This document shows, piece after piece, positions 7,969-15,319 of a stretch of DNA of 64,000 nt (position 1 is the stretch's first letter; the number at the start of each line of letters is the position of its first letter). Origin of the DNA: Ruficoccus amylovorans. GTDB lineage: Bacteria > Verrucomicrobiota > Verrucomicrobiia > Opitutales > Cerasicoccaceae. The DNA lies in contig NZ_JACHVB010000035.1 of the NCBI RefSeq assembly GCF_014230085.1, positions 186,001 to 250,000 on the forward strand, written 5' to 3'. The position numbers and the translations under genes were made by a program. The notes below the pieces were generated by a model that was not told the DNA's origin, ran no database searches, and worked only from the letters and a program-made list of their open reading frames with translations.

Positions 7969-9291
7969 TTATTGCGCGGGTTCAAGCACATACATGTGCC
8001 GGTTCAAAGACAGGAACTCGTCGTAGGGCATGGTCTTGTAGGCGTGATCCGGGCCCCACGAATCCGAGAACACAATCTCCCGGGTGTCGGGGTGGATGCC
8101 GATAATCAGGCGGCAGTGGCCGGGCACGAGCCAGACGATGGGCAAGCCCTGCTCGATGACGGAGCGGATGCTGGCTGGCTCGTTGCTGCCGAGCTCTTTC
8201 ACCCGCAGTGGGGCGGTGCCGCTGACTCGCCGCATGGCGGTGGTCATGTTGTCCAGCGAGGTGCCGTAGCGCTCGGTTTCGGCCAGTTTGGCCACGCTGT
8301 ACATATCGACCGGGTAGCCGTAGTAGGACAAGACGCGGGCGAGGGTGGCCGCCACACAGTAGCCTTTTTCGCCCTGCGAGATCATGGGGATGTCGGCGAC
8401 GTACAGCTCGCCGTTTTCGGAGGTTTTGACATGCCCGATGAGGTCCTGGCCGGAGGCCGGGGAATTGCCTTGGCGAATCCCGTATTCGCTCAGTTCGAGA
8501 ATCAGGTACTCGTCGGAGCTGTAACGCAGGCGGGCCTCCGTTTCGTTGGGGAGGTAATAAAGCTCTTCGCCGTAGCGCAGGGCATTGATACCCGGCCCGG
8601 AGTCGTGGTCGGAGCCGAACTGGTTTGTCCCAAACGCCTTCTCGATCCGCGCGAGCTTGTCGCGAAGAATCGGGTAGGCGCGCCGGGGGTCCACCACGCT
8701 GTGGCGGTCGCCCTTGTTCCAGAAGTTGATCACGATGCGCGCCGAGCGGGCGGTGTTTTTCGAGAGGCGCACTTCGACCGGCATCTGGTCCCAGGCGAAC
8801 CCGTCCTGCCGGGGCTGGCTGGAAGCAATGCTCATGGGGTCGTCCTCGGTGCCGTCCATGAGGATGGCTTTTTTGCCCAGCAGGCGCTTGCGAAGCTCAA
8901 GCAGTTCGATGCTCCAGGGGGTCTCGGCTTCGAGCTGCTTTTTCAGCAGGGGAAAGGAGTCAATGTCCTCGCGCACGCTGGCGTAAGCGCGAGGGTGGAC
9001 CTTGGACAGGTCGGGGACGTGGATCTGCGCCTGGATGGGGGGCGCGCCGTAGCGGACATATTCGACATCCCAGAAGCGTCCCTTGGCGGATGTTGATTCA
9101 CTGACGACGTTGACCTTGATCCCTGGCTGGAAGTCGCCGAGCTGTTCACCGGTTTCGGGGTTATAGGCGGGGGTGGCGACAGTAAAAGTCCAGGTCTCCG
9201 GAAGCGTGAGCGGCGAGTAAGCGGCCCGGGCGGTGGGCAGGAACGCAGTCAGCAGGCACAGGAGCAGGTACTGGCGGACAGCGGTAGGCAT
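7969..9291 (-). CDS. exported C39-like (papain-fold) cysteine peptidase
   Basis: Predicted 440-residue exported protein. Residues 1-23 are a signal peptide ending TARA. The C-terminal 130 residues show the C39-family layout: a glutamine and cysteine in SQGEKGYCVAATLARVLSYY (Cys312), a histidine in VPGHCRLIIGIHP (His392), and an aspartate in FSDSWG (Asp410). The triad looks complete, so it could be an active protease, though many such secreted domains have unknown substrates. The first 290 residues have no clear family. It is the first gene of a minus-strand unit with two SHD1 proteins, and is divergent from the manC-like gene with 80 bp between. Confidence 0.8.
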   Translation of the reverse strand: MPTAVRQYLLLCLLTAFLPTARAAYSPLTLPETWTFTVATPAYNPETGEQLGDFQPGIKVNVVSESTSAKGRFWDVEYVRYGAPPIQAQIHVPDLSKVHPRAYASVREDIDSFPLLKKQLEAETPWSIELLELRKRLLGKKAILMDGTEDDPMSIASSQPRQDGFAWDQMPVEVRLSKNTARSARIVINFWNKGDRHSVVDPRRAYPILRDKLARIEKAFGTNQFGSDHDSGPGINALRYGEELYYLPNETEARLRYSSDEYLILELSEYGIRQGNSPASGQDLIGHVKTSENGELYVADIPMISQGEKGYCVAATLARVLSYYGYPVDMYSVAKLAETERYGTSLDNMTTAMRRVSGTAPLRVKELGSNEPASIRSVIEQGLPIVWLVPGHCRLIIGIHPDTREIVFSDSWGPDHAYKTMPYDEFLSLNRHMYVLEPAQ

Positions 9292-12066: not shown

Positions 12067-14001
<1,935 letters not shown>

Positions 14002-14024
14002 TTATGTGGTGGTGGCTAAGTTGG

Positions 14025-14663
14025 TCAGAAAGGCAGAGGTCCCCAAGTGACCCCATTTTCTCTGGTGGTAGACATTTCCGCTGTCAGCAGATATGGCGGT
14101 TGAAAGATGGATGTGTAAATCTGATTGCTGAGATTACCAGGTAGTGGCTCGGGGTTGATTTCAATAAATCGGGGCTCGCTGATTGCTCCGTCTTTGATCT
14201 CGTAATAGCCGACGACTCCACTGGTTGCGCTTCCATGGAGATAGACCCAAATTCGGGTGCGTTTATATAGCGGTTCCAGCGCGACAGCCTTCGGGTGTCC
14301 ATCTATGCTTCCGATGTGGCGATAGGTGCCGTCATCATTAAGAAAACACCAGAAATAACCCCCACCTGTGCCAAACGTTTCGGGGCCGCCCGAGAGCAGC
14401 AGGTCGTTATCGCCGTCTTGGTCGAGGTCTACGACGAAGCGATAGCGTTCGACTGTCTCGCCGGCATGGTTGATCGCGGGGGAGCCAGAAGGGTCTGGTA
14501 TGTCGGGAACCGTGCGTATAGCGGTTGCATCCTGTGGATTTTGAATTCTCTCATCAACCGCGCATAAGGTGATCGCCGGAAGCGCCAGCAGGAGAGCGGA
14601 AAATAAAGTCCGCGTGCTCCTGAGTCCTCTGTGTCTGCGAAAAAGCGTGGAAAAAACGTGCAT
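14025..14663 (-). CDS. exported hypothetical protein between TPP riboswitch and thiC
   Basis: Predicted 212-residue protein. The ATG at 14663 comes right after the 3' strand of the TPP aptamer, with the aptamer's own AAGGGA as the only Shine-Dalgarno candidate. The N-terminus is basic, then hydrophobic (TLFSALLLALPAITLCA), a plausible signal peptide. One motif stands out: VVDLDQDGDNDLLLSGG, an FG-GAP/VCBS-like calcium-loop segment, and the rest looks beta-rich. By eye its codons are more AT-rich than those of thiC. I do not recognise a family and nothing links it to thiamine except position. It may be an insertion into the thiC leader. Confidence 0.65.
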   Translation of the reverse strand: MHVFSTLFRRHRGLRSTRTLFSALLLALPAITLCAVDERIQNPQDATAIRTVPDIPDPSGSPAINHAGETVERYRFVVDLDQDGDNDLLLSGGPETFGTGGGYFWCFLNDDGTYRHIGSIDGHPKAVALEPLYKRTRIWVYLHGSATSGVVGYYEIKDGAISEPRFIEINPEPLPGNLSNQIYTSIFQPPYLLTAEMSTTRENGVTWGPLPF

Positions 14664-14758
14664 GTGTCCCTTCGTCGGCATTACCCGTAGCAGGTTCCTC
14701 GGGTCGAAGGCCGTTTCGTGCCCTCCTCTCAGCCCCGCGCGCGGAGCCCCCCGTTTGT
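14664..14758 (-). promoter_or_regulatory. TPP riboswitch (THI element)
   Basis: Read on the minus strand, the segment contains the conserved parts of the aptamer in order: CGGGGGGCUCC, then CUGAGA with GGAGGG, then ACCC with AACCUG, then GGGUAAUGCCG and finally GAAGGGA. These are the pyrimidine-sensing and pyrophosphate-sensing arms of known TPP riboswitches. The P1 helix is weakly paired as far as I can see. The 3' end carries the only ribosome binding site candidate for the next ORF, so control by hiding it is likely. thiC itself begins about 680 bases further on. Confidence 0.93.
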
Positions 14759-14857
14759 GAAGCGCACTAAAGGGGAAAAACCCGTGTTTCGCAACCCCTT
14801 AAAGCGATTATCCTCAGGTGTGCGCCGGGGGATAAGGCGAAAGGGGGGAAGCGCTTT

Positions 14858-15319
14858 TTACTGAGCGGTGACTTCGAAAAAGGTCTCCGGCGCGAAGTCG
14901 GTGTTACCGGGCATGGTTTCGAGGACGTTACCGTCGGGGCCGAGGACAACGATTTTGTCACCGATGCCGACGAATACCTTTTCGAGTTGGCCGGAGGGGG
15001 AGAACTGGTCGCAACGCAGGTAGCGGTTATCGAGGCCCGGGTAGGGGAGCATGGTGTAGAGCAACTCCCCGCTGCCGTCGTAAACGGTGTAGCGGGTGGC
15101 GAGCCCCTGCGCGTTGCGCTCGTAGTAGCCGTGCAGGATGACGTTGCCGTCGGGGTCGTGCTTGATGAACTCGGAGGGCCGGTCCGGATGGCCGACGATG
15201 GTGCCACGGTTGGCGGCGGTGGCGGGGGAAGACGCCTGGGTGATGTCCGGGGTGGAAAAAGCGACGAGCAGGAGAATGCCAAGCAGACCCAGCAGGAGGA
15301 GCGGGTTTTTATTCTTCAT
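14858..15319 (-). CDS. hypothetical exported or membrane-anchored protein
   Basis: Predicted 153-residue protein with a strongly hydrophobic N-terminus (NPLLLLGLLGILLLVAF) serving as a signal anchor or signal peptide. The rest is soluble and strand-rich, with repeated loops of the form DPDGN, DGSGE and GPDGN that recall bacterial beta-repeat proteins. I do not recognise a family. It is transcribed in the same direction as the TPP-thiC unit but is separated from it by about 100 bases. The single frame is clean and codon use fits the neighbours. Confidence 0.6.
   Translation of the reverse strand: MKNKNPLLLLGLLGILLLVAFSTPDITQASSPATAANRGTIVGHPDRPSEFIKHDPDGNVILHGYYERNAQGLATRYTVYDGSGELLYTMLPYPGLDNRYLRCDQFSPSGQLEKVFVGIGDKIVVLGPDGNVLETMPGNTDFAPETFFEVTAQ

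Follow-up and report, generated by a model that had tools for sequence, protein, structure and literature searches.

The closest described counterpart of the locus analyzed here is the B12 riboswitch of Mycobacterium tuberculosis ppe2, where an upstream open reading frame (ORF), uPPE2, overlaps the regulated gene at an AUGA and is reported to be essential for PPE2, mainly through termination-reinitiation (PMC11260477). The likeness lies in the order of the parts, a riboswitch followed by a short ORF and then a regulated gene (in M. tuberculosis one without a Shine-Dalgarno (SD) motif), and in three of the genomes examined here (G001, G003, and G004) it extends to the AUGA overlap itself. The aptamer class and the phylum differ, however, and the ORFs described below span 30–212 codons and can be complete genes; moreover, in M. 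tuberculosis the gene was shown to require translation of the uORF, a requirement that is here proposed from the layout. The aptamer family and the target gene are instead shared with the E. coli thiC riboswitch, in which TPP is reported to lower translation initiation and, via Rho, the transcript (PMC5234074), but in E. coli the target of the switch is the start of thiC itself, whereas here an extra cistron lies between. Termination-reinitiation at overlapping genes is described as widespread, and the coupling of ATGA gene pairs resembles the present case in its stop-start overlap or close spacing and in that, for some groups, an SD motif is described as not needed (PMC6728339); these are, however, general operon pairs with no riboswitch relay.

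In the open-licence literature, searched at the level of entries, we found neither a description of an aptamer, leader ORF, and thiC in this order nor anything on TPP riboswitches with thiC in Verrucomicrobia. The annotation of a riboswitch usually follows the gene that adjoins it. In the leaders considered here that gene is probably a relay and not the target, and on this view leaders in which a gene separates the aptamer from a biosynthetic gene have to be read differently. If the coupling is true, these leaders would be a TPP counterpart, in SD-poor bacteria, of the one riboswitch-uORF relay that we found described (uPPE2), would supply a set of naturally varied leader genes with which to ask whether being translated can by itself be the reason for keeping an ORF, and would provide a simple route for unrelated genes into vitamin control.

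The Aptamer, Leader Gene, and thiC

The window analyzed, a stretch of 64,000 nucleotides from Ruficoccus amylovorans, carries on its minus strand a TPP aptamer, a gene for an unrelated exported protein (P0001), and thiC (Table 1). The order aptamer, exported-protein gene, thiC given in the preliminary description was borne out, all three elements being verified, and the ORF indeed abuts the aptamer, with its ATG 3 bases past the GGGA and its end 41 bases before thiC. The conserved aptamer core read there from the letters is present as well, and an Infernal comparison with RF00059 gave a match over the whole model. Its score lies 0.2 bits below the gathering score of 54.3, and a gathering-threshold Rfam scan is therefore empty at this locus. 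The P1 stem is weak, with non-standard pairs at four of the five model P1 positions, while the conserved core is intact. The scores of the three aptamers from the window's genus (48.6, 52.3, and 54.1 bits) compare with 57.3–65.5 bits in the seven other family genomes, and may reflect relaxed control.

Table 1. Features of the aptamer-thiC locus in window coordinates, and leader frames of the family genomes with their ends relative to the thiC ATG.
Feature	Position	Strand	Frame (codons)	Frame end	Remarks
TPP riboswitch aptamer (RF00059)	14763-14650	minus			54.1 bits, E 2.3e-9, model 1-105 (cmscan)
Aptamer-core AUG	14681-14679	minus			in frame with leader gene; would give 218 codons
GGGA, 3′ end of aptamer core	14670-14667	minus			3 bases before leader-gene ATG (sequence)
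Leader cistron P0001, exported-protein gene	14663-14025	minus	212	-41	weak FG-GAP / XAC2610-like similarity
Gap between leader gene and thiC, 41 bases	14024-13984	minus			no GGAG/GAGG/AGGA in last 22 bases
thiC (phosphomethylpyrimidine synthase)	13983-12067	minus			Pfam ThiC_Rad_SAM E 1.1e-187; ThiC-associated E 8.1e-30
G003 leader frame			155	+4	ATGA overlap
G001 leader frame			40	+4	ATGA overlap
G004 leader frame			33	+4	ATGA overlap
G005, G006, G007 leader frames			30 each	-5
G008 leader frame			185	-7
G009 leader frame			37	-11

A second TPP switch before thiC was rejected on a genome-wide RF00059 search, in which this aptamer was the only match. A near promoter before thiC was likewise rejected, with no sigma-70-like site in 13900–15000 against 0.5 expected, in a search for the sigma-70 type only. 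Nor did the ten family loci, the window's among them, show the form of an intrinsic-terminator riboswitch: a crude scan, which reached no further than ~150 bases into each leader, gave a hairpin with a U-run between aptamer and gene in none of the ten and in two of 48 other loci. The one terminator-like site in 13900–15000 (1.2 expected) lies upstream of the aptamer. Directly upstream of the aptamer is also the gene for a 153-aa protein (15319–14858, minus strand) with a hydrophobic N-terminus, which has no Pfam match and no counterpart in the other family loci.

Leader ORFs across the Family

The family set comprised ten genomes (Cerasicoccus and relatives), each with one TPP match and thiC downstream; in the NCBI taxonomy, Cerasicoccus is placed in Cerasicoccaceae, Puniceicoccales, Verrucomicrobiota. 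Comparing thiC leaders among these relatives, a check put forward in the preliminary description, we noted that nine of the ten hold an ORF between the aptamer and the thiC start, which opens with an ATG 0–8 bases past the aptamer GGGA, runs for 30–212 codons, and ends at −41 to +4 of the thiC ATG. The exception (G002) has a 722-base spacer with a 71-codon frame from the aptamer AUG, followed by a PDDEXK_3 gene (E 4.9e-39), which we take to be of the GxxExxY type and whose frame stops 108 bases before thiC. The 71-codon ORF of this genome (L004 / L153), open from the aptamer's own AUG, appears membrane-like.

The likelihood of such a layout arising by chance was assessed by shuffling each spacer while keeping its dinucleotides. 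An ORF running from the aptamer to the start of the regulated gene, as in the uPPE2 relay, was found under strict limits (ATG at 0–12, at least 10 codons, frame end at −12 to +6 of thiC) in 8/10 family loci against 0.27 expected, and in 1/48 thiC loci from elsewhere in the order, outside this family, against 1.21 expected. With the end limit widened to −45 to +6, which is needed for the window's own frame (end −41) to be counted, the figures were 9/10 (0.51 expected) and 2/48 (2.58 expected). These limits were chosen after the pattern was seen, and the other families are for that reason the important control. When the search range, the start codons, and the end limits were varied in 16 ways, Fisher p ranged from 9.2e-9 to 1.9e-5, and pooling close relatives left 6/7 lineages against 1/48 (p 1.7e-6). 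A second collection, made up of 80 named thiC loci, had some members in common with the first; seven had no aptamer by regex, five belonged to the family, and one of the remaining 68 showed the layout.

The 58 loci counted were those with thiC downstream, on the same strand, and within the available DNA, out of 150 TPP loci drawn from a search of 372 genomes, 258 of which had a match, plus family and further searches; a 151st (L005, a protein match from the window's own genome) was dropped. The thiC starts in the 58 were assigned by rule, as the in-frame ATG nearest the expected start, and some may be wrong. Chance accounts least readily for the long frames, which have probabilities of 0.0003 to 0.015 in shuffles, while the short ORFs are singly only mildly unlikely (0.03–0.06). 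A reading in which the leader frames arose by chance and the layout is sampling noise draws on the latter, as frames of 30–40 codons are individually common once an ATG is given (0.18–0.76 each). This reading, already disfavoured, is highly improbable in view of the excess over shuffles in the family, the control families standing at expectation, and the robustness of the result over all 16 settings.

The leader products are mostly unrelated, comprising short peptides, an ORF6N protein (G008, E 9.9e-30), and the exported protein of the window. No mutual homology is evident among the short ORFs except in three Cerasicoccus-type genomes (G005–G007). In two of these, G006 and G007 (loci L006 and L009), 0/93 leader bases differ against 94/1413 in thiC (P 0.0017), and the G005 leader (L007) has three differences from each, one per codon position. 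The conservation would fit a leader whose DNA is an RNA expression platform, with the frame incidental there, but we noted no unusual folding in these leaders, and in G001, G004, and G009 the DNA is not conserved while the frame layout is still kept; the platform reading is thus very unlikely. Within the genus of the window, the thiC identities (G001–G003 0.903, G000–G003 0.894, G000–G001 0.873) are too close to root a series for the order of leader-gene loss.

The Exported Protein and Its Relatives

P0001 has a hydrophobic stretch at its N-terminus, and its gene differs from thiC in composition, with a third-codon-position G+C of 0.55 against 0.88 in the part of thiC within the locus, in line with the AT-richness remarked on earlier. 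No homologue was found in the nine other family genomes by BLAST-level search, and the same level of search gave P0001 in only 3/372 genomes of the order, its own included. A three-row profile extended this to 7/387 genomes of the phylum, a count that includes the own genome and one profile member. One relative (L235) is full-length, with 39% identity and with the DxDxDG loop, the TFGT-GG stretch, and the C-terminal STT..VTW motif all present. A further exported protein in the window, encoded at 9291–7969 (minus strand), carries a Peptidase_C39-like domain (E 4.7e-7).

A diverged relative, missed by the BLAST-level genome search, is found at the same position in G003. Compared directly as two sequences, its leader protein is 31% identical to P0001 (E 4e-8), and none of 1000 shuffles scored as well; at this identity, the G000 and G003 leaders are saturated for dN/dS. 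The thiC of the window and of G003 are 93% identical. The G003 protein has neither the DxDxDG (calcium-loop) nor the GTGGG motif and is without the C-terminal third, yet its 155-codon frame is open up to the overlap with thiC; an open frame of this length has a shuffle chance of ~0.01–0.015. On our reading the protein has decayed while its frame has been maintained, although divergence to a new function is possible instead.

The nature of P0001 is hinted at by weak similarities. The FG-GAP-like loop of the preliminary description stood as a resemblance over one stretch to PF13517 (16.6 bits, E 0.012), a score below the gathering cut-off of 26.9, and P0001 was not accepted as an FG-GAP repeat protein. 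Assignment as an XAC2610-related protein (NF047539) failed in the same way, all scores being below the curated cut-off of 35 bits (P0001, 13.7 bits, E 0.068; L232, 19.9; L238, 16; L239, 15.7). XAC2610 and PliI-like proteins are described as periplasmic inhibitors (NCBIfam NF047539; PMC10933484). The likeness to these consists of weak matches by P0001 and three relatives over the same region (E 7.8e-4 to 0.016 for the relatives), whereas L235 has no match, and we take it as a hint, from profile similarity, at a periplasmic inhibitor-like protein. A structure prediction from two sequences was unusable (mean pLDDT 30.7), and a profile search of solved structures with P0001 gave nothing (best E 0.36).

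A real role of the protein in thiamine use, offered earlier as one of two readings, would make its control by TPP adaptive. The gene is intact, has full-length relatives such as L235, and occupies the same position in two species of the genus. Against this, the protein is patchy in the phylum and escaped detection by BLAST-level search in the rest of the family, the G003 copy is without most of the family motifs, the weak XAC2610-like match, below cut-off, points to the cell envelope and away from thiamine, and the other family leader ORFs encode other things. The proposed role was left unsupported, and we consider it very unlikely. The window gene probably occupies a leader-cistron slot as a passenger and is not a thiamine gene. 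The other earlier reading, of an insertion into the leader with thiamine control retained, fits the family comparison in its outline, but the leader of this family already carried an ORF at this place. The exported-protein gene is therefore more likely to have taken the place of a leader ORF, or to have grown inside one, than to have broken a bare leader.

Translation Starts and RNA Structure

Of 44 genes taken from the window by a crude selection, five are preceded by SD-like motifs (GGAG/GAGG/AGGA), against a shuffle mean of 3.3. Since this is hardly above shuffles, most genes of the genome probably start without an SD motif, as has been described for Bacteroidetes (PMC6847099) and for some Verrucomicrobia, e.g., Akkermansia (PMC10783764). 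Within 22 bases before thiC the motifs occur in none of the ten family loci, but they are likewise not enriched in the window generally, and by eye the thiC SD motif is also missing in other families, where no leader ORF exists; its absence in the family thus proves nothing. By the same measure, the GAAGGGA proposed earlier is an uncertain ribosome binding site for the leader gene; its GGGA lies 3 bases before the ATG. Elsewhere in the window, three gene pairs have 4-base overlaps.

The deciding factor for such starts is probably whether RNA structure leaves the AUG region accessible. The leader start could be blocked directly by an aptamer ending 3 bases before the AUG or holding an in-frame AUG. 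An in-frame AUG within the aptamer core was observed in the window and in G003 (161 codons), G002 (71 codons), G006 (37 codons), and G009 (44 codons), and in these five the start codon could come from the aptamer itself; in the window, either the core AUG or the leader ATG could serve as the leader start. An extended P1 covering the leader AUG was considered and rejected, as the best upstream-downstream duplexes were, as a group, no better than in shuffles, and no better than in other families (duplex z between −2.6 and 0.5 for the family's ten loci, between −3.0 and 1.8 for 48 others). Four short leaders had no special folding stability (z 0.1 to 1.4 against shuffles). With neither a duplex nor a folding signal, the structural step of the mechanism set out below is without computed support.

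A Proposed Translational Relay

The recurrence of an ORF at this place in nine of the ten family genomes suggests, at the level of gene layout, that the switch acts on thiC through the leader gene. We hold it moderately probable that thiC is controlled via a translated leader cistron, which in the window is a complete exported-protein gene. From the aptamer, the gene order, and the frame and end positions as they compare with shuffles and other families, we infer translation of the leader, its coupling to thiC, the part played by Rho, the response to TPP, and the passenger status of the window gene. The TPP aptamer would thus control a two-gene unit of leader cistron and thiC. At low TPP, the leader AUG region would be free, and ribosomes would translate the leader and then reach thiC, either by termination-reinitiation or by opening of the thiC start, with protection from Rho in addition. 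When TPP is bound, the aptamer would close over the leader start, the leader would stay untranslated, and thiC would be silenced along with the leader, because ribosomes no longer reinitiate, because of Rho polarity, or for both reasons.

Under the proposal, only translation of the leader would matter, and its sequence would for that reason be free to drift or be exchanged, giving the short peptides, the ORF6N protein, and the window's exported protein, the last of which would come under thiamine control as a passenger. A stronger form of the proposal, which we regard as possible though doubtful, is that selection acts on the leader being translated and not on its product, so that any gene arriving there in frame may be captured into thiamine control and may then decay with its frame still open. 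The intact gene of the window, the degenerate open frame of G003, the 40-codon frame of G001, and the ORF6N exchange in G008 would then be snapshots of this process.

Several observations stand against the relay, among them the low aptamer scores in the window's genus, the short ORFs that are each only mildly unlikely, the duplexes no better than in shuffles, the misfit of G002, and the window's own stop, which at 41 bases before thiC is far for classic reinitiation. With this gap, pure reinitiation is a less likely mechanism for the window than for its relatives, and the odds shift toward polarity or a weakened link. The thiC starts are A/T-rich and could also admit ribosomes directly, in the manner of other SD-poor bacteria. 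Direct entry of this kind belongs to an explanation in which the leader is a tolerant insertion site, and thiC is co-transcribed but starts alone, the switch acting via Rho and transcript continuity or via structure. Its appeal rests on the spacers, which span 102–722 bases in the family, and 467–722 in 4/10 of its genomes, against 35–225 in the 48 loci of other families, on three unrelated inserts (the orf212 type, ORF6N, and PDDEXK_3), on the uncoupled G002, and on thiC doing without an SD motif in other families as well. An insertion site, however, leaves unexplained why frames start 0–8 bases past the aptamer and stop at −11 to +4 in 8/10 family genomes, and we consider it unlikely.

Two further arrangements were noted outside the family. 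Long spacers between a TPP aptamer and thiC are seen in L219 (Chthoniobacterales, 361 bases) and L214 (Verrucomicrobia AV28, 241 bases), and at G062:C3:53782-54105 two TPP matches on opposite strands, ~100 bases apart, form a divergent pair (L077 and L078).
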